DNA of 64,000 nt from Calothrix anomala FACHB-343 (GTDB lineage Bacteria; Cyanobacteriota; Cyanobacteriia; Cyanobacteriales; Nostocaceae), in contig NZ_JACJQG010000004.1 in the NCBI RefSeq assembly GCF_014696435.1, positions 1 through 64,000 of the forward strand. The letters run 5' to 3'. Below the pieces are notes generated by a model. The model worked only from the letters and a program-made list of their open reading frames with translations, was not told the origin of the DNA and ran no database searches. Below are positions 1 to 16,604 of this stretch, piece by piece (the stretch's first letter is position 1; each line of letters starts with the position of its first letter). Made by a program: the position numbers and the translations under genes.

Positions 1-1349
1 ATCAAACTAGTTTCTGTGCGAATGATGAAGCTGTTAATCTTATACCCAATGTGACGGGTGGTACATTCCAAGTGCTAGATGCACAAGGTAAAGTGATTAA
101 AAATGCGCTCGCCGTAGACGTGGGCGCAGCCATCGCTAATTCTCAATTCCTCCCCAAAGCAGTCACAATCGACGAAGCTGAAACATCAACACAGGTTACA
201 TTAAAATACACCATCACCAGCAGTCAAGGTTGTACCAACTCTGCACAGAAAACTTTGACAATTTTCGCCGTACCAGATGCGAGTTTCCAAGTAGGTAGTG
301 AAGCAGAAAATCAAACTAATATCTGTGAGAATGCTCTACCTGTGGAACTTATACCCAAAGTTGCGAGTGGTAAATTCCGAGTATTAATTGGCGACAAAGA
401 TATTTCTGATGATGCACTTGATTACCAATCTAATCCTCCGCATTTGATTCCTAGTGCAGTGAAAATCGGTGATGCACGACAAGTGACACTTACCATTGAG
501 TATACAATCGTCAACGAAAATAACTGTACTAGCCAGCACGTTGAAAACCTCACCGTACATCGAGTTCCTGTAAGTGACTTTGAAGCAGAAATTTTCCAAA
601 TCAATGCTAATGGATTTTCCGTGCGAGTATTCGATATTTTACCAGCACAAAATAGTTCCATGAGGTTAGAGTGGGAACATCCCAACGGAGAAGCTAACAC
701 CAGCAATCCTGATGATAATGAGTTCTTAATTAGCTATAACTATGATTTCAATAATTGGCAAGCTGGCGCACAGGTTTCTATTACATTGCAGGTAATTACA
801 CCAGAAAATCTTGGTGGTTGTAGCAGCAATCCAGTTACCAAAAACGTTGCTATTCCCTTTGGTGCTGTACAAGGGTTTAATTTAGTGATTCGTAGTGGTA
901 CAAATGTACTTGACGAAATCTCATTGGGAAGCAATAACAGTTTTATATTAGGAGAGTTAGAGAAACAGAGTGAATCTCCAGCTGAATATACGATCGAAGC
1001 GGTAACTATCCCTGCTACCTTAGACAGCATAGTATTTACTTATACTGCTCCTGGTGATGAAGAGATGGTTAGTAGTCCAATGAATACACCCTACCGCCTA
1101 CCCGATGGCTGGTTCAATATTGTCGGCGACCATATTATTCAAGCACAACCCGTTAAGGAAATTAACAACGTACTCTGGTTAGGGGTAACTTCGACTACAA
1201 TCATTCACATATCTGACGGTGACACTGGTACAAATACCCCTACCCCATCTACACCTAAGTCCGCTACATTACTTAATCGCCTACGTGTCCTATTTGACAC
1301 TAAAGAGTGGAATATTCAGGAGATCAAAGGCGTTAATCCTAATGGATAA
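1..1349 (+). CDS. Ig-like repeat protein, 3' part, eCIS-linked
   Basis: The frame is open from the left edge, so the N-terminus lies outside the window; a GTG at 51 is only an internal codon. At least two Ig/PKD-like units of about 110 residues are visible. Each begins with a Cys-containing stretch (FCANDEAVNLIPNVTGG, then NICENALPVELIPKVASG) and carries a second Cys near a T-I-x-x-x-x-x-C-T segment, which suggests one disulfide per unit. A less repetitive C-terminal region ends in a Thr/Pro-rich linker. No enzymatic motif is seen. The stop lies 76 bp before the tape-measure gene on the same strand. It may be a fibre, adhesin or structural component of the eCIS locus, but that role is inferred from position only. 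Confidence 0.6.
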   Translation, partial: QTSFCANDEAVNLIPNVTGGTFQVLDAQGKVIKNALAVDVGAAIANSQFLPKAVTIDEAETSTQVTLKYTITSSQGCTNSAQKTLTIFAVPDASFQVGSEAENQTNICENALPVELIPKVASGKFRVLIGDKDISDDALDYQSNPPHLIPSAVKIGDARQVTLTIEYTIVNENNCTSQHVENLTVHRVPVSDFEAEIFQINANGFSVRVFDILPAQNSSMRLEWEHPNGEANTSNPDDNEFLISYNYDFNNWQAGAQVSITLQVITPENLGGCSSNPVTKNVAIPFGAVQGFNLVIRSGTNVLDEISLGSNNSFILGELEKQSESPAEYTIEAVTIPATLDSIVFTYTAPGDEEMVSSPMNTPYRLPDGWFNIVGDHIIQAQPVKEINNVLWLGVTSTTIIHISDGDTGTNTPTPSTPKSATLLNRLRVLFDTKEWNIQEIKGVNPNG

Positions 1350-1425: not shown

Positions 1426-4400
1426 ATGACTAAACAACGCCACATCATTGGAAAAACTGTATTAGAACTCGATACTGGGCAAATAGCTGATGTATGGAGT
1501 TTACAGGAAGATATGAGCCGCTTGTTGCAGCAGCAGGGCGTGCAGGAAATGGAGCGTCTTTTTGATCAATTGCTGGGGGATGAGCAGGTGATTCGCCTGG
1601 ATCGGGTAGTGGTGGAGATAGGTTATATTGACCGCAGATTTTTAGCTGATGAATTTATCCGCAATTTAATCAAAGCACTTAGGGAGACTTTAGCAGATCA
1701 TTTAGCGGATAGGTTGGTTGGTAGTGCAAAAACCGAAAAAATTACCCGCGATCGCTCTGGCTCAGATTGGGAGGTGTTACTCTACTTTTTACGCTATGGG
1801 CGCTTACCTTGGTGGTGTCCTTCAGGAGACTGGCTTACTTGGTTTCCACGTTGGGCAGCCGTGATGCAAAATGATACCAGTTTGCAACAGTCTCTGCGGG
1901 AATTACTGATAAATAACCAAGCAGCAAAGCAACGCTTAATTGAGCAGTTACCAGAATCTTTCCTACACCAGTTAATATTACAACTACAACCCGCCTGGGT
2001 AATTTGGTCTACCCGACTAGCACAAGCTCAAGGGCTGATGCAATCCGGGAAATTAGATAGTAGTGCTATTCGCTACCTAAATCGGCAAGCTTGGCTATTA
2101 TTACTCAGCGAAATTAGTGCAGATAACGCACCTACCAAACCATTTCCCGCAAATTGGACTCGTAACTGGTTAGCCCAACTGTTGAAAATCTGGCAGCAAT
2201 CAGCTAATTTTACAGATTATCAGCCGCAAATCTCCCAGTTTAACCAAATTAGTCAACAAATCAGCGCCGATCTGCAAGGATTTCCCAGTGAAGAGCAGAG
2301 AATTTGGCTGACAGCACTAGAACAGGTGCTAACTGCTATCTCAGATCCTACAGCGCGATCGCCTGAACTGCCACAAACCCACCTGCAAACAGATTGGCAA
2401 GTTTTACTGTACTTTTTAGAACATGGTCGTTTACCCAATGAGGCAGCATCAACAACTTGGCAAACTTGGTTACAACGCTGGGAAACCGTCATCCAAACTG
2501 AAACCGCTTGGCAAATACCTCTGCGGCCATTACTGAATAATAATGTAGCAGCACGCCAGAGATTAATTATTCAGTTACCGCCAGCCTTACGCCATCAGTT
2601 GATATTGCAATTACAGCCAGCTTGGACAAATTGGTACACCCTGCTAGCTCAAGCTCAACAATTAATGCAGTCTTTGAGCCTCAACAGTGATAGCTTACAG
2701 AAATTAAACACACAGGCTTGGGAATTACTCTTAGCCGAAATCAGCAGCGATAACCCATCACTAAATCCCTTACCCGCCGCAAATTGGACAAGTAACTGGC
2801 TTGCTCAATTAGTGCAAAACTGGCGCTGGGGAGACAAGGAAGCAGGGGAGCAGGGGAGCAGGGGAGCAGGGGGGGAAAGTGATGAGTTGGCGGTTGATGT
2901 CAACGTCAAGCAAATTGCTTGGGAACGATTACGTAGTAGTATTGATGCTATATCTCGTGCTGAAAGAAACCTGTGGTTGAATGCCTATAACCAGGTGCTA
3001 AATTTAACTGCTACTGAGAAAAAAGAGCGATCGCCTCAGCTACCTCAAACCACTCCACAAACAGATTGGCAAGTTTTATTGTACTTTTTAGAACATGGTC
3101 GATTACCAGATGAGCAAGCATCAACAACTTGGCAAACTTGGTTACAACGCTGGGAAACAGTCATCCAAACTGAAACTACTTGGCAATTACCTCTGCGGCA
3201 ATTGCTGATTAATAATGTAGCATCAAGACAGAGATTAATTACTCAGTTCCCGCCAGCCTTACGCCATCAGGTGATATTGCAATTACAGCCGGCTTGGACA
3301 AATTGGTACACCCTGTTAGCTCAAGCTAGAGAAATCATCCAATCTTTAAACCTGAGCAATGATAACTGTGAGCAATTAGAACAACAAGCTTGGCTGCTAC
3401 TCTTAGCAGAACTGAGCTTTGATAACCCATCACTAAATCCCTTACCCGCAGCCAATTGGACTCGCAACTGGCTTACCAAACTTCTGCAAATCTGGCGATT
3501 AACACCGAACACAAATCAATTAACCGCAACTTCTCCCCCAGTGGAAGCAGCAGCACCGACACAAAACCAAGATGCAGTTCCCCCAGAAATAGCCAATCAG
3601 AAGCCGCAGCAAAACCTGCGTCAGCGCATCGCTGCATTCCCAATTAGCGACAGCACCCTGTGGCAAAATGCCCTTGAGCAGATGCTCACTGCTACACTTA
3701 TTGATATCAGCACACCACCCTTTGAGACAAAAACCTCCGCCTTACCCCCAATTCCCCAAGAATCGACAGGTGTTCCTGCGCCATCTTCCCCAGAAACAAA
3801 CATATTCACATACGCAACCCCAACACCACAGCAAAACCCATCGGTTGAGCAAGTAGAACTCCCGACACCAGAACCAACCAATCCCCTGAGCATACCCCCC
3901 CGACGGGCTAGGGGTTCGAGATTATCGAAGTCTGAAGAAACTGCGGGGTTGTATGTCAACCAAGCCGGAATCGTGCTGTTACATCCGTTTTTAACTGTCT
4001 ATCTCGATGCAGTGGGGCTATTAGATGGCGAATCATTCCGGGATGAATTGGCACAGCAAACAGCAATTTACCTGTTGCATTACCTAGCTACCAAGCAAAC
4101 CGACGCACCAGAATACGAACTAGTGCTACCCAAACTGCTTTGCGGCTGGCCTTTAGATGAGCCAGTTTCCCGTGGCTTAGATTTACCTGCAACCGCCTTA
4201 ACAGAAGGCGAAAACCTGTTACAAACTGTCATCAACTACTGGGAAGCCCTGAAAAGCACCAGCCCCGACGGTTTGCGGGAGGGTTTTTTACAGCGTGCAG
4301 GGAAGCTTACCCAAGCTGATGGTAACTGGAAGCTTCAGGTAGAGCAACAGGCGATCGATATTTTGCTGGGTCGTCTACCTTGGGGACTCAGCATGGTGAA

Positions 4401-4443
4401 ATTGCCGATGATGGATGACATTCTGATTGTGGAATGGCATTAG
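1426..4443 (+). CDS. eCIS tape-measure protein (Afp14-like, CIS_TMP family)
   Basis: This 1005-residue protein is expected to set the length of the inner tube of a phage-tail-like extracellular contractile injection system. The N-terminus (MTKQRHIIGKTVLELDTGQ, then a region rich in LDRVVVEIG) and the C-terminus (LLHPFL..., PKLLCGWPLDEPV, ending DDILIVEWH) match what is known of the CIS tape-measure family. The middle holds three long repeats starting with (S/T)DW(E/Q)VLLYFL(R/E)(Y/H)GRLP near residues 113, 322 and 546. They are followed by a Pro/Thr-rich linker at about 700-830. A Gly/Glu/Ser-rich insert at about 470-485 comes from a short tandem DNA repeat. The ATG at 1426 is chosen for its family-like N-terminus. 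The nearest good Shine-Dalgarno sequence is about 33 bp upstream. Confidence 0.85.
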   Translation: MTKQRHIIGKTVLELDTGQIADVWSLQEDMSRLLQQQGVQEMERLFDQLLGDEQVIRLDRVVVEIGYIDRRFLADEFIRNLIKALRETLADHLADRLVGSAKTEKITRDRSGSDWEVLLYFLRYGRLPWWCPSGDWLTWFPRWAAVMQNDTSLQQSLRELLINNQAAKQRLIEQLPESFLHQLILQLQPAWVIWSTRLAQAQGLMQSGKLDSSAIRYLNRQAWLLLLSEISADNAPTKPFPANWTRNWLAQLLKIWQQSANFTDYQPQISQFNQISQQISADLQGFPSEEQRIWLTALEQVLTAISDPTARSPELPQTHLQTDWQVLLYFLEHGRLPNEAASTTWQTWLQRWETVIQTETAWQIPLRPLLNNNVAARQRLIIQLPPALRHQLILQLQPAWTNWYTLLAQAQQLMQSLSLNSDSLQKLNTQAWELLLAEISSDNPSLNPLPAANWTSNWLAQLVQNWRWGDKEAGEQGSRGAGGESDELAVDVNVKQIAWERLRSSIDAISRAERNLWLNAYNQVLNLTATEKKERSPQLPQTTPQTDWQVLLYFLEHGRLPDEQASTTWQTWLQRWETVIQTETTWQLPLRQLLINNVASRQRLITQFPPALRHQVILQLQPAWTNWYTLLAQAREIIQSLNLSNDNCEQLEQQAWLLLLAELSFDNPSLNPLPAANWTRNWLTKLLQIWRLTPNTNQLTATSPPVEAAAPTQNQDAVPPEIANQKPQQNLRQRIAAFPISDSTLWQNALEQMLTATLIDISTPPFETKTSALPPIPQESTGVPAPSSPETNIFTYATPTPQQNPSVEQVELPTPEPTNPLSIPPRRARGSRLSKSEETAGLYVNQAGIVLLHPFLTVYLDAVGLLDGESFRDELAQQTAIYLLHYLATKQTDAPEYELVLPKLLCGWPLDEPVSRGLDLPATALTEGENLLQTVINYWEALKSTSPDGLREGFLQRAGKLTQADGNWKLQVEQQAIDILLGRLPWGLSMVKLPMMDDILIVEWH
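1762..3501 (+). repeat. Three long repeats inside the tape-measure gene
   Basis: Units begin at about 1762, 2389 and 3061, with periods of 627 and 672 bp (209 and 224 codons). Each encodes about 147 conserved residues followed by a variable linker. Units 2 and 3 are nearly identical in protein, while unit 1 is more diverged, which points to a recent duplication of one unit. Confidence 0.85.
2833..2876 (+). repeat. In-frame (GGGGAGCA)n short tandem repeat
   Basis: Repeats of GGGGAGCA-type octamers lie inside the tape-measure gene and keep the reading frame. They encode a Gly/Glu/Gln/Ser/Arg-rich stretch in the linker between the second and third long repeats. Similar purine-rich repeats recur at 38951-38975 (intergenic) and 55718-55753 (NRPS). 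Confidence 0.8.
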
Positions 4444-4478: not shown

Positions 4479-5666
4479 ATGAAAACCAACGAGAACCAAA
4501 AAAGCACAAATTCTCAGCCAGCGACGCAAAAGCCTTTTTTCGGAGCTAAACCAGAGCAAGCATTTTTTTCGTTAGCAAAAGAGCAGTCTACACCCTTTTT
4601 CCAACGGTCGGCTACTAGCGATGCTGATGCTATAAGTGAGTCAGTAGTGCAAAGAATGCCTGCTTTTGAAAGTGAAGTTAAGGATAATGGGGCAGTACAG
4701 AGAAAGTTTGTTAACCCATCACCGATACAGGCAAAATTGACTATCGGTGAGCCAGGGGATAAGTACGAGCAGGAAGCAGATCGGGTAGCATCCCAAGTGG
4801 TAGAACAAATAAATGCACCAGCACCCGTGCAGTCAAATCAAGGGCAGTCAGTACAGCGTCAGGAAGAAAAAAAAGAGGAACTTCAGGCAAAACCTGATAT
4901 TACCAGTCTGCAAAGACAGGAGGAAAAGCCAGAAGAACTACAAGCGAAGTTCACTATCCAAAGACGCGAAGATATCGCAGGCGGGGAAGCTTCACCAGAT
5001 TTGACATCAGCCATTAACAGCGCCAGGGGAGGAGGACAACCTCTAGATGCTAGTCTGCAAAAATCAATGGGACAAGCAATGGGGGCAGATTTTAGTGGGG
5101 TGCGGGTGCATACAGATACGCAATCAGACCAGTTGAATCGGTCGATTCAGGCAAAGGCGTTTACTACAGGACAGGATGTTTTCTTTCGGCAGGGGGCGTA
5201 TGAGCCAGGGAGTCGTGGAGGTCAGGAGTTGATTGCCCATGAGTTGACCCATGTGGTGCAGCAGAATGGTGGGGCAGTGATGCGATTGCCTCTAGTAGAG
5301 GCGAGAAATTCGACGGTAATCCAGCGATTAATTGAGCAAAACACATCACACTGGAACCAGGGAGCGGCTGCGGGACCGGATATACACGCACACGCGGCTG
5401 CCTATAATATCCCCAATTTGGGTGCAGATCTGAATAATCGTGCAATCAACCAAGGACTAGCGAGCGACACAAAGATAGTCGTCAGCTATCCGCGAGCTGG
5501 TGCTCCCTATTTATCACATATAGTAATTGTTGCATTTTGGCATCAGGGAGTAATGCCTGCACAAAATCGAATTCGATACCATACAGCATATTACCACCGC
5601 GGTCATGCTCAACAAGGTGTACCAAACACACATTACTGGCAAAACGCTGCTGTAGTCAACGTATAG
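4479..5666 (+). CDS. DUF4157 protein, probable eCIS cargo/effector
   Basis: This 395-residue protein combines an N-terminal region typical of eCIS-loaded proteins with a DUF4157 domain. The first 160 residues are disordered and carry repeated (V/L/I)QR motifs and duplicated EELQAK segments. The DUF4157 domain spans about residues 180-270 and has the zincin-like motif HELTH at 254-258, in the context LIAHELTHVVQQ. The remaining 120 residues are His- and Tyr-rich and match no family I recognise. DUF4157 proteins are known to be enriched in eCIS loci. The gene follows the tape-measure gene after 35 bp and has a good RBS (TAGGGGA). I infer that the C-terminal domain is the delivered activity, but its function is unknown. 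Confidence 0.75.
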   Translation: MKTNENQKSTNSQPATQKPFFGAKPEQAFFSLAKEQSTPFFQRSATSDADAISESVVQRMPAFESEVKDNGAVQRKFVNPSPIQAKLTIGEPGDKYEQEADRVASQVVEQINAPAPVQSNQGQSVQRQEEKKEELQAKPDITSLQRQEEKPEELQAKFTIQRREDIAGGEASPDLTSAINSARGGGQPLDASLQKSMGQAMGADFSGVRVHTDTQSDQLNRSIQAKAFTTGQDVFFRQGAYEPGSRGGQELIAHELTHVVQQNGGAVMRLPLVEARNSTVIQRLIEQNTSHWNQGAAAGPDIHAHAAAYNIPNLGADLNNRAINQGLASDTKIVVSYPRAGAPYLSHIVIVAFWHQGVMPAQNRIRYHTAYYHRGHAQQGVPNTHYWQNAAVVNV

Positions 5667-6083: not shown

Positions 6084-6374
6084 ATGGCTGAACTCAAACT
6101 TAGGTCAAAAGATCCAGATTCCCTCAGACGAATTATTCAAAGTGCTTTGTCAGAAAGATTACAAAGTGTGACAGCAGGAATTAAAAGAACACAAGAACGT
6201 CTTCAAGAATTTGAAACTAAATATCAATTATCGACGGGGGAATTTATCATCCGCTTTAATAATGATGAATTATCCCATAATTTTGACTTTGATGAATGGA
6301 TCGGAGAAGCTCGAATGTTGGCACATTTACAACAAACAAAAGAATCGATAGAGGAGATTCATTTTGTTGATTGA
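6084..6374 (+). CDS. TumA-like antitoxin
   Basis: This 96-residue protein is mostly charged and helical, with a likely coiled coil at about residues 25-50. It shows no DNA-binding motif I can name. It is translationally coupled to the downstream TumE-family gene, which starts inside its last codons, and a partner of this size directly upstream is the usual antitoxin arrangement for TumE. An AAGGA site about 10 bp upstream supports the ATG. The call rests mainly on the neighbour and on length. Confidence 0.6.
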   Translation: MAELKLRSKDPDSLRRIIQSALSERLQSVTAGIKRTQERLQEFETKYQLSTGEFIIRFNNDELSHNFDFDEWIGEARMLAHLQQTKESIEEIHFVD

Positions 6375-6759
6375 AGACTACTTTCAGCAGATTCAGATTC
6401 TCATTGAATCCTCGCAAATAGTTCAATTATTTAATATTGAACCTGAAAAAAGAGGAATGTATGAAGGTTTTATTAGGGGAAAGCTGGAATTTGAAGATAA
6501 TTCATTGCTGCATTTGAGAGAATTTGTTTATGTGGAAATATCCATAGATAGAAAAATGTATAGTTATCAATATATGAGTTCAGAGAATAATCTAATTTTT
6601 CGCTATGACAATACTGAGCATCACCGGAAATTAAATCTAACTACCTTTCCTCATCATAAACATGATGGAAGTGAGGATAACGTTGTTAAATCAAATGCTC
6701 CTTTTTTAGCTGATGTGCTAAAGGAAATTGAAAAAATATTAGTGCGATCACTTTGTTGA
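6364..6759 (+). CDS. TumE-family toxin
   Basis: This 131-residue protein resembles the TumE toxin-like family (DUF6516). The features are an N-terminal DYFQQI segment, a central G-x-L-x-F...L-x-L-x-E-F-V strand pattern, a Y-S-Y-Q-Y-M segment, F-R-Y-D-N, and a late P-H-H-K-H segment. No start codon other than TTG allows a full-length product. TTG at 6364 or 6367 overlaps the end of the upstream gene, consistent with coupled translation. The target of TumE toxins is not well established. With its partner it may help stabilise the mobile DNA that contains it. Confidence 0.7.
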   Translation: MLIEDYFQQIQILIESSQIVQLFNIEPEKRGMYEGFIRGKLEFEDNSLLHLREFVYVEISIDRKMYSYQYMSSENNLIFRYDNTEHHRKLNLTTFPHHKHDGSEDNVVKSNAPFLADVLKEIEKILVRSLC

Positions 6760-6979: not shown

Positions 6980-7189
6980 ATGCCGCAAAGAAAAACCGAA
7001 TTTGATGTGTCTCGCTACATTCCCAGGAAGAACGAAACTCTATCTGAAAAACTGCTCAGGCTAGCTATGTTATTTCGTTTGGTGAAGCCGTTAAATGTAG
7101 ATAAAGCAACAAAAAAAATGATCATGACAAACCCAGAGTTGTTACCGCAGTATCTCAACCAACAACACGGCGATGACATTGCCATTTAG
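6980..7189 (+). CDS. Small hypothetical protein convergent with recombinase
   Basis: This is a possible 69-residue basic protein of unknown function. Its last 48 bp overlap the 3' end of the serine recombinase gene on the opposite strand. The ATG has no strong ribosome binding site. The composition (Arg/Lys/Leu, helical) is plausible for a real product. It could be a small accessory factor of the element, such as a directionality factor, but nothing in the sequence shows that. It may also be a chance reading frame. Confidence 0.35.
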   Translation: MPQRKTEFDVSRYIPRKNETLSEKLLRLAMLFRLVKPLNVDKATKKMIMTNPELLPQYLNQQHGDDIAI

Positions 7190-8518
7190 AACTTTTACTT
7201 CCTTGACAAATTTTTTGTACAAATCCTTCTTGCTTTCATCTGGCATAACCTCAAGGAACTCAACATCACCGAAGGTGTCTATCAATTCTTTTTGCAAACT
7301 TGCCCCAACAAAAGCGAATTGAATGTTTTGTTGCTGAAGTTGCTGAATCTTGACTACTGTTCGGTCGATTGCTTCTTCAATAATCGAATCTCTGGGAAGT
7401 TTTCGCAGTACCTCAAGACGGGATTTAAGCTCGATAATTTCCGGGGTATCTTGGTTCGATGGCTGGCTGCTGACAACATAGTCCCTGAGTTTGATCGCTC
7501 TTGTTGTTAAGGCAGCATCAACGGCATCGACAACCTTTTTCAGTGAAACTGCGGTTCTATTGCTACAAGCAGTTTCGCCGTAAACCCGGCGACGTTTGCA
7601 TCGCAATCCCATAGATCTTTTAGCATCATGGACATAACATTTCCCTCCGCAGGAACCGCAGATAATTTGCCCAGACAATAAACGCCCGCCAATATCTGTT
7701 TGTGTGGCACCCTCAAAGTTCTTACCCCACAGGCGTTGATTTTCTCTCAGCCGAGTTTCAATCTGTTGGTAAACTTCTTTTGAGATCAAAGGCTGATGGG
7801 TATTTTCTCGAATATCCCATTTTTCGGGGTTAACGCGATTAAATTTGACGTTATACCTAGTGTGACCTCGCAGCACTGGGTTCAACAACCAAGAGCGTAG
7901 CCCTGGAGGGGAAAACTGAATATTGAATTCTTTGATAAAGTGTTGAATAGTATTTCGCAGCGAAGTTTTTTGAGATAAAAAATATTGAATAATTTCCTGG
8001 GCTATTGCCCAATTAGTTTTTCCACTGGGCTGATGTATAGTCAGATCGGGAACATACTTACCGTCAACTCTAGCGAACCCGAACGGTGGCTGATAAGCTT
8101 TGTTTTGTTCGCGAAAATGCTCTAATCCGTGGTTTACTCTGCTCTGTAACAACCGAGATTCAAACTCAGCTAGTCCTGCCATTTGATTTAGAGAAAACCA
8201 CCCAAATGGGCTGGATGCATCTTCTACGGGGGCATCTAAGATGACAAGTTTGATATTCAATTTTTCGAGTAGTGCGATTGTTTTAGCGATGGTCATCACA
8301 GACCTAGCCAGTCTATCGATTCGAGTGATCGCGATTTCTTTGATTTGTCCTTCGCGGCACATCGCGAGCATTTTGTTGAAGTTTTTCCGGCTGTCGCTTC
8401 GCCCAGATTCGATGTCAGAAAAAATCAAGCTACAGCCAGCTTTTTCAATTCTGGCGGTTTGTTGAGTCAGCGCGTCACTCTGTTCAAATTTCGATACTCT
8501 AACGTAACCGACCCGCAT
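7142..8518 (-). CDS. Large serine recombinase (XisF-like)
   Basis: This 458-residue site-specific recombinase would join or excise DNA at a short core site. The N-terminal resolvase domain has nucleophile Ser9 in the YVRVS motif and the active-site arginines of R66-I-D68-R69-L-A-R72. A recombinase domain follows at about 155-260. A zinc ribbon contains CGSCGGKC and a later Cys pair near residues 290-320, and a coiled-coil tail follows. This layout matches large serine recombinases such as XisF of the heterocyst fdxN element. The start codon lies 30 bp from the truncated end of coxA and reads away from it, as expected for a recombinase at the edge of its element. Confidence 0.88.
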   Translation of the reverse strand: MRVGYVRVSKFEQSDALTQQTARIEKAGCSLIFSDIESGRSDSRKNFNKMLAMCREGQIKEIAITRIDRLARSVMTIAKTIALLEKLNIKLVILDAPVEDASSPFGWFSLNQMAGLAEFESRLLQSRVNHGLEHFREQNKAYQPPFGFARVDGKYVPDLTIHQPSGKTNWAIAQEIIQYFLSQKTSLRNTIQHFIKEFNIQFSPPGLRSWLLNPVLRGHTRYNVKFNRVNPEKWDIRENTHQPLISKEVYQQIETRLRENQRLWGKNFEGATQTDIGGRLLSGQIICGSCGGKCYVHDAKRSMGLRCKRRRVYGETACSNRTAVSLKKVVDAVDAALTTRAIKLRDYVVSSQPSNQDTPEIIELKSRLEVLRKLPRDSIIEEAIDRTVVKIQQLQQQNIQFAFVGASLQKELIDTFGDVEFLEVMPDESKKDLYKKFVKEVKVLNGNVIAVLLVEILR

Positions 8519-8600
8519 AAACCTCTAAAACTCAATGTCAGCGCAGTTTAACATAAAATGTCCGATGTTAGTTCATCTAGAGAGGGAAATGTCCACAAAA
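8519..8600. other. Putative element end / attachment junction in coxA
   Basis: Reading the minus strand, the coxA homology runs through LFLWTFPS and stops at about 8570-8590. Non-homologous codons and a TAA (8548-8550) follow. The 30 bp between this stop and the recombinase start would belong to the element. The exact crossover cannot be fixed because the partner end is outside the window. Confidence 0.6.
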
Positions 8601-8865
8601 ACAGCATCACTGTGCCGTGCATGGTGAACATACCGTTGTATACAGTACGATCGATGAGGTCTGATTCGGGGGTAATAAGTTCGCCGCGAATCACCATTGC
8701 AAAGATACCGCCCACGAGAAAGAAGATAAATGCGGTTACGAGGTATTGGATACCAATAACTTTATGGTCTGTACTAAAGCTAAAGTATCGCTTCCAATCA
8801 CCTGGGGATTCGTGTTGAGGCTTGCCACTAGGAAGGGTGACGCCTTCAATTGAGATATTTGTCAT
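8548..8865 (-). pseudogene. coxA: coxA (ctaD) N-terminal fragment, interrupted
   Basis: Only the first 105 codons are present, of about 550 expected for the catalytic subunit I of a haem-copper oxidase. The start (MTNISIEGV) is preceded by AAGGAC and lies 14 bp after coxB. The residues SPGDWKRYFSFSTDHKVIG, the first transmembrane segment (IQYLVTAFIFFLVGGIFAM) and YNGMFTMHGTVMLFLW, which carries the first haem-ligand His, are intact. After FPS the sequence departs from the family and ends at a TAA. None of the later helices or copper-ligand histidines occur elsewhere in the window. The gene is either a permanent remnant or, more interestingly, a gene restored by excision of the neighbouring element. 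Confidence 0.85.
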
Positions 8866-8879
8866 CGGTTCTTGTCCTT

Positions 8880-9821
8880 TCAACCAGGATAGTTGACTAG
8901 TGGGGCTGACCCAGGTGCGACAGTAGCCCAACCAGTTTTAACTGATTGACTAGCGGCTTGGGCATACTCGTAAGCTGCTTGATTTTTTGCGGGTGCAAGT
9001 TTGTTGGTTGCAGCTTGGGCTAGCCATTGCTGGTATTGTTCGGGAGATTCAACTACCACATCTGCGTACATGGTTGCAAAGTATGTACCGCTATATTGAG
9101 AATCGGTGAGTTGGTACTTACCTGGGCGAATGGGTGTAAATTCAAAGTCAATGTTGTGGTTGGGAATGATGTCTTGCTTGAGGCGAAATGCGGGAATATA
9201 GAAGCCGTGAAGCACATCTTCGGATTTTAATGCCAAACGGATACGGCGATCGCTTGGCAGATGTAGTTCGCTACTGGTAACATCTGTTTCTGGATAGTGG
9301 AAGACCCATGCCCATTGTTTGGCAATTACGTCTATTTTTTCCACTGGTGCGGTTACAGCCTTTACTGGGGCATTTTTATCTTTAGGTGCTGCATAGGCTG
9401 ATTCCATACCTACAGGATTATGCAGGTGTACCAATGCCATTGGCCCTTGAATCCCCATTTGTTCGTAGATTTGGTAGCTGTAACTGGCAATCCAAAATAC
9501 TAAGAGGATGGGAATGGCTGTCCAAACTACTTCTAGGGTAATATTACCTTCAATTGGCGGGCCGTCGCTGTAATCACCCTTTGGTGCCCGATGGAAAAGA
9601 ATCGAATACATGAGAGTAGCAGTCACTCCCAAAAAGATAAAGGCACCTAAGGTAACTAAGAAGCTGATTAAATCATCGATGAGGATAGATTCAGCCGCAG
9701 CTTGTGGAGGAAGCCAGGTATAAGCCTGCTTTCCAATCCAGAAACTGATAGCAGTGATGATGGCGATCGCGATCGCGACTGCTATTAGTGCGAAAATATT
9801 GAATGTCTTCTGGGATTTCAT
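8880..9821 (-). CDS. coxB: Cytochrome oxidase subunit II without CuA (ARTO type)
   Basis: This 313-residue subunit II has two transmembrane segments (about 10-30 and 48-72) followed by a periplasmic/lumenal cupredoxin domain. The motifs LEVVWTAIPILLVFWIA and KQWAWVFHYPE are typical of CoxB. The CuA loop is altered: at the positions of C-x3-C-x3-H-x2-M it reads D240...S244...F248...M251, so both cysteines and one His are lost. This is the signature of cyanobacterial alternative oxidases (ARTO, cox3 in Anabaena), which probably take electrons from quinol rather than a cytochrome c. It lies in one minus-strand operon after two DUF2231 genes. Confidence 0.88.
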   Translation of the reverse strand: MKSQKTFNIFALIAVAIAIAIITAISFWIGKQAYTWLPPQAAAESILIDDLISFLVTLGAFIFLGVTATLMYSILFHRAPKGDYSDGPPIEGNITLEVVWTAIPILLVFWIASYSYQIYEQMGIQGPMALVHLHNPVGMESAYAAPKDKNAPVKAVTAPVEKIDVIAKQWAWVFHYPETDVTSSELHLPSDRRIRLALKSEDVLHGFYIPAFRLKQDIIPNHNIDFEFTPIRPGKYQLTDSQYSGTYFATMYADVVVESPEQYQQWLAQAATNKLAPAKNQAAYEYAQAASQSVKTGWATVAPGSAPLVNYPG

Positions 9822-9929: not shown

Positions 9930-10535
9930 CTACTTAAACGCTGTGTTTAGGTCTTGGCCTAATCGCAACAATTTATCTGCTGTGTTGTGGACGCCAAATT
10001 CGGCGGCTAGTTGTGCGCCTAAAGTGCCGTGAAGATACAAGATAAACATGACTACGACACCTGTTAACAGATAGCGCCATTGCACTTGTTTCTCTTCATC
10101 CCGGCGAGTAATAAAGCGCTGGTATCCTCTCCAAACTGTCATACCAATCATGATTGCTAGTAACAACACACCACCGACACCATGCCAAATCATGGTATCT
10201 ATGGCGGGTAATCCCCAAGCGCTTTTCACATCAGCTGGTGGTTGTGCTAGCAACATTTCGTAAAAGCCAGCAGCGACTGTAAAAAAGGTAATGGTAGATG
10301 CGGCTACCATGTTGTACCAGCCAACATCAAATAGGTTATTACGTTCAACAGAAATAGCGAAAAATTTAAAGACCCATTTTTGGAAGGGAAACAGCGCCCC
10401 AACGATATCAAAGGTAATCCCAATGATGAATAAACCTAAAGTTAGATGGACTAAGTTGGGATGAACTGGAATACTGTAAGGTAAGCCGTTTGGGCCGAGT
10501 TGCCCGCTAAATTGGTTAATTAGTTCTGAGTTCAT
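9930..10535 (-). CDS. DUF2231 membrane protein of the ARTO operon, second
   Basis: This 201-residue protein has four predicted membrane segments. It starts with a conserved P-x-H-P-x-x-V-H-x-T region followed by helices with well-placed His residues, as in DUF2231 proteins that may bind haem. The start codon overlaps the stop of the upstream DUF2231 gene by 4 bp (ATGA). Paired genes of this kind are known ahead of coxB in cox3-type operons of heterocystous cyanobacteria. A role as an electron-input or assembly partner of the oxidase is inferred from position. Confidence 0.75.
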   Translation of the reverse strand: MNSELINQFSGQLGPNGLPYSIPVHPNLVHLTLGLFIIGITFDIVGALFPFQKWVFKFFAISVERNNLFDVGWYNMVAASTITFFTVAAGFYEMLLAQPPADVKSAWGLPAIDTMIWHGVGGVLLLAIMIGMTVWRGYQRFITRRDEEKQVQWRYLLTGVVVMFILYLHGTLGAQLAAEFGVHNTADKLLRLGQDLNTAFK

Positions 10536-11032
10536 GGCAAAAGACCGTCTCTGAGTGCTTCAACAACTGGTACTGTATGCAGTCCATATACCCAAACCAG
10601 TTCATCTCCCAGGTATACTTGCAAGCCAACTATTGCGGTTAAAATCGCCCCAGCACCGAGATAATAAATTGTTAATCTCTGAGGGTCGCGGGCACGAATT
10701 ACGTAGCGCCAAGCGGTAATGGCGGCAATAATTCCTGATAGTGACCAGCCAATCAGTGTATGGACGTTGAGAACTGATTTAGCTGCTTCATAAGGATGGG
10801 CTAAACCTGCTTCAAATTGACCAAAAATGATGGCAACAAAGATGGAAATTGTCGCAATGAGCATATTCCACCAACTTACCTCATATAGGCGAAAGTTGCG
10901 CGTAAAATAGCCAATTACATCACAACAAAAGGCGAATAGCACCATCGCAATGACAAAGTGAACTACGATTGGATGGAGCGTATCCGGATAGGGTAAATTG
11001 TGGTCATTCAAATTTGTTAGATAATCAAACAC
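10532..11032 (-). CDS. DUF2231 membrane protein of the ARTO operon, first
   Basis: This 166-residue protein is the first gene of the minus-strand oxidase operon. It has four hydrophobic helices and the DUF2231 start motif YPDTLHPIVVHFVIAMVLFA, in which two His residues are possible haem ligands. It is related to the following gene but shorter. A long non-coding region upstream, about 800 bp to the next gene, suggests that the operon promoter lies there. Confidence 0.75.
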   Translation of the reverse strand: MFDYLTNLNDHNLPYPDTLHPIVVHFVIAMVLFAFCCDVIGYFTRNFRLYEVSWWNMLIATISIFVAIIFGQFEAGLAHPYEAAKSVLNVHTLIGWSLSGIIAAITAWRYVIRARDPQRLTIYYLGAGAILTAIVGLQVYLGDELVWVYGLHTVPVVEALRDGLLP

Positions 11033-12151: not shown

Positions 12152-12301
12152 GTAGCCAATTTAACTCTCTGCTGTTGCATAAATTTGGGGATTTACGGTG
12201 ATGATACAGGGGGAGTAGTCGCATTTAAGCAAATTCACCCATGAGATGTATGCTTGCGTTTCTTGGTGGGGTGTGGTTGAGAATTGCTGGAGTATGTACA
12301 A

Positions 12302-14602
12302 ATGACAACACAGATGGATAAGACAAATTCTATAACAATTGCTATTACTTGGTGTTTGGCTTGGGGCGATAAACGCGAACCTCAATATAGCTTGGAAGTG
12401 TTGCGGCAAATGTGTGAGGCTTTGAATGATGGGAAAGAAGTACCTGAAGAAGTTCAGGCGTTAGTGAAGCAAGCGCAGGAATTACAACATTTAGAGTTTC
12501 CAGACACCCTAGAAAAATTAAAGCAATTACCAGAGAAATATCCTCTGCTATGGAATTCTAAAATTGGTTTAGTTTATGGTGGTGCTACTAAGATTAAGCA
12601 ATATGTTTTTGAAGAATCTAAACTCCCCGATATTCGTGGTGCTTCTGGACTTTTAGATAAAATTAACTTGGTTGAATTGCCTGCTTTTTTTAATGTCATC
12701 CCAGAGTCACCTCATTACAATTACAATATTGAATGCAGAGAAATAAAAAGATGGGTTAATGAAAATTTTGATAAAAAGCCCAATTTATCAGATGCTTTAA
12801 TTCCTGAATTGATTATTTATTCAACTGGTGGTAATATCCTTGCTTTTTGTCCAGCAGATTTTGGAGATGATTTAGCTAATGCTATAGAAAAGCGTTATAC
12901 GCAAAGAACCCTCACTGCTAATTCTTGTGCCGTTGGAGAAACTTTTAGAATTTTAGAAACTAGCTTAGGGTTGCTTAGAGATAATATTGAAAAAACATTT
13001 TGGCTGGAAAAATATCAGCAAGAGTATCAAAATAGCATTGTTGAAGCGTATTTCGGCAAAATTGATGATATCTCAAAAATTGAAGAGACATTTATAAAGC
13101 ATAAAAGTTTTAACGAATTAACCACAAAATTAGCAATTCGTTTTAATCAACGCCGTAGTGGAAATTATAGCGAAAACCGTCCGACTCGTCGCTATCCGCC
13201 AATGTTTGAAACTCATCCTTACCTCAGAAGAGATGAAGGTGAGAAACGTTCTGCTATTGCTCATATACATCAACTAATTGGTAAACCTCATCTTTCTGAA
13301 AGTGTAATTTATAAACGCAGAATCGGCGATAGAGCAAAAACTGGGATTTCTGAAACACCCAAATGGTATCAAGATACTGGGTTAGAATGGGAACCGGGAA
13401 TAATTGAAAGTTGGCTCGATAAATTTGAGTATTTTTTGCATAATAATTCCGAACAACGGCAGAAATATTATGGTAGTCAAAATGCTCAGACTAAAGAAAT
13501 TAAAATTGCCCAATCTTTAACTCATTTGGGTAAAGTAAGCAATAACTATGTAGCATATATATATGCAGATGGTAATAACATGGGTGGTTTTATTCAAAAC
13601 ATCCGCACACCGCAAGAATATCAAGAATTTAGCCAAGATGTGGAAAATGCCACAAAATATGCTGTTTATCAAGCTTTAGCATACAATCTGCATCCGCGTG
13701 AAATTAAAGGTATCAGTGAAGCAGAATCAAAAGTTAAAGATGGAGATTTAATTCATCCATTTGAGATTATTACCATTGGCGGTGATGACATTTTCTTGAT
13801 AGTACCAGCAGATAAAGCTTTACAGATTGCTAAGATGATAGGTGAGCAATTTGAAAACATACTTTTAGAGAAAGTCAAAATATCAGGTGTAAAAATCAAA
13901 GGCAAATATAAGGTAGATAATAATCTGCTAGTTGCTAATAAACACCATCGCTTTGCTGAAACGATATCTGAAGAGGCTCAATGTAAACTTAGTATGTCTA
14001 CTGGTGTATTGATTACTGCTTACAATACGCCAATTTACTATGCAGAAGATTTGACAAACCAGTTGATGAAATCTGCAAAAAAATATGCTAAGTCTCTCAA
14101 AGAAAATGGCTATTATGGTGGAACGATAGATTTCTTTACTATGAAATCAGTCACAATGATTTCATCAAATATCGAAGAATTTCGCAAACAAGCATTAACT
14201 ATTGATAACAGAGGTGCAAAACTTAAGCTTTACTCTGCACCTTATACAATACCAGAACTAGATAAATTTTTGAAATCTATTTACGCACTGCAAAAAGCTG
14301 AATTTCCTAAATCACAACTTTATCAAATTCGTGGTTTTCTAGAACGAGGTAAGCGAACTGCTAGTTTAAATTATTACTATTTTCGTCACCGACTGAAAAA
14401 AGGACAAGATGCACTGAAAGCCGACTTTGAAGATAAATGGTGTCCAGCTAAAACCAACAAAGGTAATATTGCACCTTGGATGTACGACTTAAAAGAAGAA
14501 ACCTATGAAACTATCTGGCGAGAAATTGTAGATTTGTTTGATTTAATTAGATTTTCAGATACCGAATCTCCACAAACATCACATCAGGAGATTGCACGAT
14601 GA
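12302..14602 (+). CDS. cas10: Cas10, type III-D, without HD domain
   Basis: This 766-residue large subunit of a type III effector complex would synthesise cyclic oligoadenylates when target RNA is bound. It has a first palm-like region (LVYGGATKIKQYVFEES...GASGLLD) and a second palm with the intact nucleotidyl-cyclase motif GGDD at about residues 493-496, in the context FEIITIGGDDIFLI. No N-terminal HD nuclease motif is seen, so the DNase activity of many Cas10 proteins is probably absent. The ATG at 12302 follows TGGAGT at a good distance; a TTG at 12284 would add six residues. The stop overlaps the next start (ATGA). Confidence 0.85.
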   Translation: MTTQMDKTNSITIAITWCLAWGDKREPQYSLEVLRQMCEALNDGKEVPEEVQALVKQAQELQHLEFPDTLEKLKQLPEKYPLLWNSKIGLVYGGATKIKQYVFEESKLPDIRGASGLLDKINLVELPAFFNVIPESPHYNYNIECREIKRWVNENFDKKPNLSDALIPELIIYSTGGNILAFCPADFGDDLANAIEKRYTQRTLTANSCAVGETFRILETSLGLLRDNIEKTFWLEKYQQEYQNSIVEAYFGKIDDISKIEETFIKHKSFNELTTKLAIRFNQRRSGNYSENRPTRRYPPMFETHPYLRRDEGEKRSAIAHIHQLIGKPHLSESVIYKRRIGDRAKTGISETPKWYQDTGLEWEPGIIESWLDKFEYFLHNNSEQRQKYYGSQNAQTKEIKIAQSLTHLGKVSNNYVAYIYADGNNMGGFIQNIRTPQEYQEFSQDVENATKYAVYQALAYNLHPREIKGISEAESKVKDGDLIHPFEIITIGGDDIFLIVPADKALQIAKMIGEQFENILLEKVKISGVKIKGKYKVDNNLLVANKHHRFAETISEEAQCKLSMSTGVLITAYNTPIYYAEDLTNQLMKSAKKYAKSLKENGYYGGTIDFFTMKSVTMISSNIEEFRKQALTIDNRGAKLKLYSAPYTIPELDKFLKSIYALQKAEFPKSQLYQIRGFLERGKRTASLNYYYFRHRLKKGQDALKADFEDKWCPAKTNKGNIAPWMYDLKEETYETIWREIVDLFDLIRFSDTESPQTSHQEIAR

Positions 14603-15339
14603 TAAAACTTCAAGCTTTATTAGATAATAATAAACCTAATCAAGTTGAAACCTTCACCATTACCGCCATAATTGACTCAGCATTATGTGTAGGTGCGGGA
14701 GGTTCTTCTGGTTCCTTAGCAGATAAACCGATTATCAGAAATTCACAACGTAATTTACTAATTCCTGGTTCACAGATAAAAGGCCGTGTACGTCATGAAT
14801 GTGAAAAATTACTGCGTGGTTTAAGATGGGAAATTTCTGAATCTCCTCATGCAGGAAAAATGGTTATTCGTAGAGATAATGCACCTTCTACATTTAATCG
14901 TGATGAATACAAAATTACCGGATATGAAAATACATATCACTGTTTAATCAGTCAAATTTTTGGCGATCCAGTTTTACCTTCACGGGTAATTTTTGACGAT
15001 TTAGTATGTACAGAAGAACCTGAAAATCTACCTGAAGTCTTGCGTCCTGGTGTGACAATTAATCGCCGTCGTCGCACCGCAGAAGAGCAAAAGCTTTATT
15101 TTCTAGAAACCTCACCCGCAAATGCAAAACTTCGGTTTCAGGGAGAAATTCACATTCAACCTAGCTTAACACCTGAACGACCAGATTATGCCAAATTATT
15201 AATTTGGGCAGGTTTACGACAAATTCATGCATTGGGGGGAAGTAAGTCAGCAGGTTTAGGATGGTTGCATTGGGAATTACCAAATATTGATGTAGGCGCT
15301 GAAGTTTGGCAATTTTTAGCAAAAGGAGAGATTAAATGA
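14599..15339 (+). CDS. Cas7-like RAMP (Csm3-like)
   Basis: This 246-residue RAMP-fold protein is probably a backbone subunit of the type III-D complex that binds crRNA. It has a Gly-rich segment with an Asp (GAGGSSGSLADKP), at the position of the target-RNA cleaving Asp of Csm3. The family motif IPGSQIKGRVRHECE and the late Gly-rich loop LGGSKSAGLGWL follow. It overlaps cas10 by 4 bp upstream and csx10 downstream, so the three are co-translated. Confidence 0.75.
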   Translation: MIKLQALLDNNKPNQVETFTITAIIDSALCVGAGGSSGSLADKPIIRNSQRNLLIPGSQIKGRVRHECEKLLRGLRWEISESPHAGKMVIRRDNAPSTFNRDEYKITGYENTYHCLISQIFGDPVLPSRVIFDDLVCTEEPENLPEVLRPGVTINRRRRTAEEQKLYFLETSPANAKLRFQGEIHIQPSLTPERPDYAKLLIWAGLRQIHALGGSKSAGLGWLHWELPNIDVGAEVWQFLAKGEIK

Positions 15340-16604
15340 AACGTATTCAATTAGAGATTAAGGCGTTATCTCCCTTAGCAATTTCTCGACAAAAACCAGG
15401 CGGTTCGGTAAGTGAATGTGAAGATTATATTCCTGGTAGTGTGATTCGTGGGGCGATTGCGAGTGAAATTTTAAAACAATCTGGTCAAACATTTGCCAAT
15501 CTTAATAAAAATGGTGATGATTTTCAGGCTTTATTTTTAAGTGATGAACCTGCGATTTTTCAAAATGCTTATCCTAATGTTTACAAAATTGATAAAAATA
15601 ATTTTAGAATTGAAGAAGAAGTCAAAATATTACCAGCTACTGCCCTAAGTTCAAAGACAAATCCAGGGTTCACTACAGATGATAAAGGAAATGGTGTTTT
15701 TGATACTCTTTTTGATCGCTTTTGTGCAGATTACTACGGTTATGCATACGAACCAAATTGTCCTACTGATGGAAGTAGAGTAGATTCTCCTGGAATTATT
15801 TTCTATAGTGTATTTAACGATGAATACTATAAAATTTCGTCACAAAAGCGTTTATTAACTAGAGTAGGTATCAATAGAAGACGTGCTACCTCAGAAGAAG
15901 AAATTTTATATAGCATTGAGGTATTAAGTGAATCAGAATCAAGGGGTAAAAATCCAAAGCCAGTCAGTTATTTATCATCTATTATTGTTCCAGATAACTT
16001 ATCAGATTTACTCGGTAAATTTATTGATAAAAATTCATTAAATTTTCGTTTAGGAGGTTCAATTTCACGCGGTTTAGGAAAAATCGAAATTCAGTCTAAT
16101 ATTTTAGAAATTCAAGATAATAGCAGCGAAATCATTAAAGAAAAAATTGAGGTATTTACTCATAAACTCTATACACGTTGGAAAAATCAATGGTCAATTT
16201 TTGGTCAACCACTTCAGGATTTATCAGAAAACCGTCAGTATTTCACATTAAATTTACAAGCAGATACAATCTTAACTGAAAAATGGCAACGTACAACTGT
16301 TATTACTGAAAAAATGTTAAAGGAATTTACAGATGTTGACGATGAATCATTAAAACTGGAAGCAGCTTATAGTAGTTATGACTATCGTTCTGGTTGGAAT
16401 TCTGCGTGGGGTTTAATGAAAGATGTGGAGTTAGTAACTAATAAAGGTTCTGTTTACTTATTTAGCACTACTCAACCAAAAAAATGGTACTTAAATTTAG
16501 CAGAATTAGAGTTGCGAGGAGTCGGGGAAAGAACTTATGAAGGTTTCGGTAAAGTTGAAATTTGTAATGCGTTTCATTTAGTAATGAGAGAGGAGTTTGT
16601 TTAA
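15336..16604 (+). CDS. csx10: Csx10, type III-D Cas5-like RAMP
   Basis: This 422-residue protein carries the marker features of Csx10. It has an N-terminal RAMP strand ALSPLAISRQKPGGSVSE, then EDYIPGSVIRGAIA, and a central Gly-rich loop GGSISRGLGKIEI near residue 245. A C-terminal second half has a GVGERTYEGFGKVEI loop. Csx10 is known as the Cas5-like subunit that defines subtype III-D and probably binds the 5' handle of the crRNA. It overlaps the preceding RAMP gene by 4 bp and touches the next gene. Confidence 0.82.
   Translation: MKRIQLEIKALSPLAISRQKPGGSVSECEDYIPGSVIRGAIASEILKQSGQTFANLNKNGDDFQALFLSDEPAIFQNAYPNVYKIDKNNFRIEEEVKILPATALSSKTNPGFTTDDKGNGVFDTLFDRFCADYYGYAYEPNCPTDGSRVDSPGIIFYSVFNDEYYKISSQKRLLTRVGINRRRATSEEEILYSIEVLSESESRGKNPKPVSYLSSIIVPDNLSDLLGKFIDKNSLNFRLGGSISRGLGKIEIQSNILEIQDNSSEIIKEKIEVFTHKLYTRWKNQWSIFGQPLQDLSENRQYFTLNLQADTILTEKWQRTTVITEKMLKEFTDVDDESLKLEAAYSSYDYRSGWNSAWGLMKDVELVTNKGSVYLFSTTQPKKWYLNLAELELRGVGERTYEGFGKVEICNAFHLVMREEFV

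Follow-up and report, generated by a model that had tools for sequence, protein, structure and literature searches.

A predicted XisF-type excision element splits the cox3-type oxidase gene coxA3 of Calothrix anomala FACHB-343 at codon 96

In the stretch of Calothrix anomala FACHB-343 DNA analyzed here (the window; 64,000 bp, C79:1-64000 of a 198-kb contig in an assembly of 9.24 Mb and 144 contigs), a cytochrome oxidase gene loses its homology beside a recombinase gene, which raises the question of whether the gene is dead or carries an element that the cell can remove. The coxA3 5' part (8584..8865, minus strand) contains the 94 codons ahead of the break and matches positions 2-58 of the 436-position COX1 profile. 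From its start at 8865, the gene reads through to MLFLWTFPSL and is divergent after the break at 8583-8579, where a five-base core, TCTCT (8579..8583, minus strand), is formed by the Ser codon TCT and the CT of Leu codon 96. An earlier note on this DNA had placed the break after LFLWTFPS, and the reading does diverge just past it, the COX1 match ending at profile position 58. It had also described a recombinase reading into the inserted DNA from 30 bp away; the direction holds, whereas the distance does not, as xis begins 60 bp past the core, and 30 bp is the gap from 8548, the end of the read-through coxA fragment, to 8518.

As the earlier note had said, the remainder of coxA is absent from the 8.5 kb to the left (window 1-8.5 kb), and the element continues past base 1. 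The search for it and for coxC, which the note had proposed, found both on a different contig, C99. The coxA 3' part is C99:41270-42439 (COX1 profile positions 57-436) with coxC next to it, and the direct repeat that had been expected near 8570-8590 is TCTCT, the second copy of which lies outside the window at C99:41273-41277. Recombination between the two copies would restore the frame: the halves joined at TCTCT give a single open CoxA frame of 557 aa that can be aligned throughout with three other CoxA proteins. Genome-wide, the COX1 profile has five matches, namely three full-length genes and both coxA halves. In alignment, the joined CoxA3 is far from all three full-length proteins, so that there is no second intact coxA3 among these five matches; neither a missing 3' part nor a full second copy, the two outcomes that the note had set against its own proposal, was encountered. 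That the gene is split by an element whose removal would make coxA3 whole again is well supported by these sequences.

The extent of the element follows from the ends of the two contigs. Over 107 bp, the start of the window (1..107) is identical to C99:1-107 in reverse complement; with this overlap, the element is ~49.7 kb long (49,748 bp core to core, positions 2418 and 52166 of the joined sequence), in keeping with the minimum of 8.5 kb given by the note. The direct orientation of the TCTCT copies in this strain (G000) rests on the same overlap. A 1881-aa frame passes through the C79/C99 joint, and the gene clusters of two relatives (G005 and G007) are collinear on either side, the joint itself falling in an alignment gap. 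Since the joint lies within a repeat-rich gene, the repeat number may be understated.

The recombinase gene, xis (7142..8518, minus strand), is codirectional with coxA and lies at one end of the element. Its 458-aa product carries the Pfam domains Resolvase, Recombinase, and Zn_ribbon_recom and scores 528.8 bits against NCBIfam recomb_XisF (cut-off, 375), which confirms the XisF-like large serine recombinase suspected from the letters. XisH has eight matches in the genome, none of which is on C79 or C99.

The interrupted operon also fits the cox3-type assignment of the earlier note. Upstream of coxA3 on the minus strand are coxB (8880..9821; Pfam COX2_TM and COX2) and two genes for DUF2231 proteins, assigned by domain match and operon order to the places of alr2730 (9930..10535) and alr2729 (10532..11032). 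The resulting order, DUF2231, DUF2231, COX2, COX1 5' part, COX1 3' part, and COX3, is that of a cox3 (ARTO) operon and of alr2729-alr2730-coxB3-coxA3-coxC3, which a review describes as expressed exclusively in heterocysts of Anabaena PCC 7120 (PMC6616624). The genome has four strong matches to the NifH family, which also includes proteins of other function, and these would agree with a nitrogen fixer. Type III CRISPR genes lie to the right of the cox3 operon (window 12284-16604), where Cas10/Cmr2 and Csx10 score over the cut-off and a Csx7-type RAMP below it.

To place this break among relatives, we searched the joined CoxA protein in 119 genomes (among the matches listed), its first 96 residues in 11 chosen genomes, and a 124-residue query in 218 genomes of the family, all counts being lower bounds; a rescan covered 22 genomes picked for a weak best score or a short open frame, along with known cases. 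Among eight congeners, coxA3 is split at the same codon in four (G001, G002, G004, and G007) and intact in the other four (G003, G005, G006, and G008), as it is in G059. At least five more distant genomes are split at this codon as well (G026, G130, G131, G156, and G029, the last four from the rescan). In G001 and G002, a single contig contains both halves in direct orientation, at distances of 39.8 and 55.2 kb, respectively, and a related recombinase adjoins the break in each genome split at this codon. The same association appears when the recombinase is the starting point: in a named collection of 30 recombinase loci, 10 are ≥63% identical to the window's xis, and all 10 are beside a split coxA3. 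Eight of these are the loci of G001 (Calothrix brevissima NIES-22), G004, G007 (Nostoc sp. T09), G026, G029, G130, G131, and G156, and the other two, seen at one end only, are from Calothrix sp. PCC 7716 and Dulcicalothrix desertica PCC 7102. A Richelia locus with a 61% identical recombinase (L082) gave no coxA match. Within the group that is 45-50% identical, L075 is at another coxA, and most others are accompanied, as judged by eye, by a NifH-like fragment; in the three loci tested (L063, L077, and L081), a family search bore out the split nifH next to xis.

Other breaks in coxA genes were seen during this survey. A second split of coxA3 near residue 250 is present at L031, L033, L036, and L037 (G130, G131, and G029); at this break, G130 and G131 have another serine recombinase, of 24% identity, with the Resolvase domain confirmed for G130. 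At L044, L045, and L046 (G040, G176, and G187), the coxA3 break is near residue 315 and holds inserts of ~1.8-2.2 kb, each with one ORF of 467-474 aa and flanked by CACCATAT repeats. The G187 ORF matches Pfam Phage_integrase weakly, below the cut-off (20.7 of 27.1 bits), and judging from their sequences these inserts are probably near-minimal tyrosine-recombinase elements. At L038-L043 (G019, G026, and G130), the broken gene is a coxA paralog, the break is at most a few codons from the corresponding position, and a serine recombinase that is 26-27% identical adjoins it; this segment of coxA has thus been hit repeatedly. Another break in a coxA paralog, near residue 185, was seen in G156 (L047 and L048), with one full recombinase match adjoining and a second in pieces.

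Junctions were read in 10 genomes (G000, G001, G002, G004, G007, G026, G029, G130, G131, and G156) to locate the crossover. The attP site rebuilt from the two element ends is an inverted repeat, the right (element-side) arm of which occupies 8559..8578 (minus strand) in the window, with 15 of 20 positions paired around a CT center and none of 500 shuffles scoring as high. In all 10 genomes, the best dyad center falls on one dinucleotide, the first two bases of the Leu codon after FPS, and of 500 letter shuffles per genome, 0 to 3.6% matched the dyad score. The dinucleotide is CT in eight genomes and TT in two (G002 and G004) and is identical at both ends in 10/10; the five-base core is identical at both ends in nine, G026 differing at the third base. 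Intact relatives have CT (G005 and G059) or TT (G003, G006, and G008) at this place. The dinucleotide on the host side is therefore that of the coxA lineage, and the element carries the matching one. Owing to the shared ancestry of the 10 genomes, the number of independent events is small.

The recombinase and its target differ in their histories. Three coxA backgrounds can be distinguished (G000 with G001, G002 with G004, and G007), and between them dS is 0.07-0.19 for xis versus 0.55-0.80 for the joined coxA3; for strains of one background, the corresponding figures are 0.08-0.10 and 0.16-0.17, respectively. Since the similarity between strains is much greater for xis than for the coxA around it, the simplest reading is that the recombinase end spread laterally between strains, although conversion of xis alone would look alike. 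On these same dS values, a single element inherited vertically across the genus is unlikely. In the xis tree, strains are grouped by the same three coxA backgrounds (three of nine inner branches well supported); therefore, repeated recent transfer is unsupported. Plasmid or phage relatives of xis were all <60% identical among the matches listed, the top-ranked ones being 27.6% and 24.7%.

Taken together, we consider it highly probable that an XisF-type element excises from codon 96 of coxA3 and rejoins the oxidase gene, most likely during heterocyst formation. The recombinase would recombine attL (coxA 5') with attR (coxA 3') across one dinucleotide, the element would leave as a circle, and coxA3 would be rejoined in frame; the most likely time is the transition from vegetative cell to heterocyst, where the oxidase would help remove O2. 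We infer the excision itself, the cell type in which it takes place, and the control of xis. As xis starts just past the junction and is read in the same sense as the operon, the cox3 operon promoter may drive it, and this drive would be lost after excision. No sigma-70-like promoter was found at 8400-8700, where 0.4 were expected in shuffles, a result that is uninformative for a cyanobacterium. An operon-driven xis is no general rule, since in four genomes (G156, G029, and the single ends of PCC 7716 and PCC 7102) xis is at the opposite end and points away from coxA.

Three other explanations of the split have to be weighed. If it were a misassembly or a chromosomal rearrangement without any element, the location of the two halves on different contigs and the joint in a repeat-rich gene would be accounted for; however, G001 and G002 each show this split within a single contig, which leads us to reject the explanation, and it is extremely improbable also in view of nine other genomes split at the same codon with a related recombinase beside each break. 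A stuck mobile island, with coxA3 dead in this strain and excision never happening, would be compatible with the three other full-length COX1 genes of the genome and with excision being a prediction from sequence. Against it, between G000 and G001, both interrupted, dN/dS is 0.033 for the 5' part (90 codons) and 0.006 for the 3' part (450 codons), and it is 0.00-0.15 in the other listed pairs with usable dS, split and intact. By this measure, the split coxA3 halves remain under purifying selection; in addition, no stop interrupts any of the 12 xis stretches examined, and the same dinucleotide is kept at both ends in all 10 genomes, all of which makes a dead gene very unlikely.

It could also be that excision is real and unrelated to heterocysts, being stress-induced or random in vegetative cells, as with a prophage. 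Hilton et al. list elements in genes without known roles in N2 fixation as well as in three non-heterocystous strains (PMC4874684), and the greater similarity of xis than of coxA between strains would imply movement in cells that leave descendants. Nevertheless, the target operon is of a type that is heterocyst-specific in Anabaena 7120 (PMC6616624), and known elements of such a kind are removed during heterocyst development (PMC4874684), so that we regard an origin of the excision outside heterocyst formation as unlikely. Excision that restores coxA3 in the developing heterocyst remains our preferred reading.

The DNA that would be removed is not the same from strain to strain. In a blastn comparison of the G000, G001, and G002 elements, nothing was in common beyond the coxA flanks, xis, and the end sites, and variation in length and content within one element variant is likewise described by Hilton et al. 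(PMC4874684). On the plus strand of the window, the cargo includes the C-terminal part of a large repeat protein (3..1349), which crosses the contig joint and belongs to the 1881-aa frame, a contractile injection system tape-measure protein (1426..4443; Pfam CIS_TMP, E 9.4e-142), an eCIS core domain protein (4479..5666; Pfam eCIS_core, E 8.6e-34), a possible, weakly matching TumA-like antitoxin (6084..6374; NCBIfam TumA, 22.7 bits, cut-off 100), and a TumE-type toxin homologue (6364..6759; Pfam TumE, E 2.4e-24; NCBIfam TumE below the cut-off, 62.9 of 90). Across the whole element, Pfam matches comprise a sheath, two gp19-type tubes, a CIS tube, a spike, a gp25 baseplate wedge, and a Pvc16-type protein besides the tape measure and the eCIS core protein, together with a weak Baseplate_J match (E 2.6e-6) and an AAA ATPase match to a general family. 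The cargo has the components of a contractile injection system of the extracellular/thylakoid type. A lipoxygenase, an nSTAND1-WD40 protein with a similar large neighbor (by eye), and a 162-aa protein whose C-terminal part looks hydrophobic by eye are also encoded.

We searched the tape-measure family in 59 genomes. In G000, matches are inside the element only, and in G001 there is none; G002 has the family outside its element, G003, G005, G006, and G008 have it alongside an intact coxA3, and G004 and G007 have it on contigs without a link to the element. An empty ancestral injection-system site was not found: the right flank gene of G007 is present in 6/6 genomes and the left one clearly in G007 only. 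The G001 element carries a type I-D CRISPR-Cas system (Cas1, Csc2, Cas10d, and Cas3d, among others), and that of G002 carries psbA (L013:6872-7957; NCBIfam, 746.8 bits, cut-off 596), sucrose synthase, a glycogen debranching enzyme, and sensor kinases, according to a Pfam scan of ORFs of ≥120 aa (10 of the 29 non-xis ORFs of G001 and 10 of the 33 of G002). The psbA of G002 thus lies in DNA predicted for excision in cells lacking oxygen evolution.

A split gene could here be closed from raw sequence and its crossover placed on one dinucleotide by strain comparison, and the comparison suggests that the recombinase module spreads between hosts and that the cargo turns over. A conceivable, if rather doubtful, extension is that the coxA3 slot serves as an exchangeable developmental cargo bay, in which a recombinase and att module moves between strains, the load is replaced wholesale, and heterocysts discard, in a single step, an injection machine linked to vegetative-cell lysis while gaining an oxidase. 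The only injection system found in G000, judged by the tape-measure family, is that of the element. If this extension were true, excision would shape what heterocysts lose, besides what they regain. Whether such loads are selfish passengers or functions kept by vegetative cells and discarded by heterocysts is now testable, and the site pair is a candidate large-serine-recombinase tool for cyanobacteria.

Several known systems resemble this element in part. The fdxN element of Nostoc/Anabaena PCC 7120 also uses an XisF-family large serine recombinase, and its repeat is 5 bp long, as is TCTCT; it differs in its target gene and in that the window's element is without xisH on C79 or C99. XisH is required for fdxN excision (PMC4874684). 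The nifH elements with serine recombinases, the nearest other recombinase group found (45-50% identical), also have a different target gene. In Bacillus subtilis, excision of the SP-beta prophage from spsM during development rebuilds the gene, as is predicted here, but SP-beta is an active prophage and acts at sporulation in a different host (PMC4191935). The thylakoid-anchored contractile injection system of Anabaena shares the sheath, tubes, spike, baseplate parts, and tape measure, whereas the window's injection-system genes sit inside a predicted excisable element (PMC8894136); no openly available paper title or abstract opening, among the matches listed, reports such a system inside an excision element. 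The closest precedents are the coxA3 elements of Hilton, Meeks, and Zehr (2016), who catalog 101 elements, with three coxA elements in three variants in Table 1 and two coxA3 variants in the text (PMC4874684). These elements share with ours the target gene, a recombinase within the element, and a predicted excision restoring coxA3. In the excision drawn in Fig. 1 for coxA3 of Calothrix sp. PCC 7103, xis is opposite to the gene and near the element end, whereas the window's xis leads and is codirectional (PMC4874684). Elements in coxA3 were therefore already published in 2016, and the window's element joins them; what is added here is the closure of the element, the evidence from the dinucleotide, the signal of lateral spread, and the content of the cargo.
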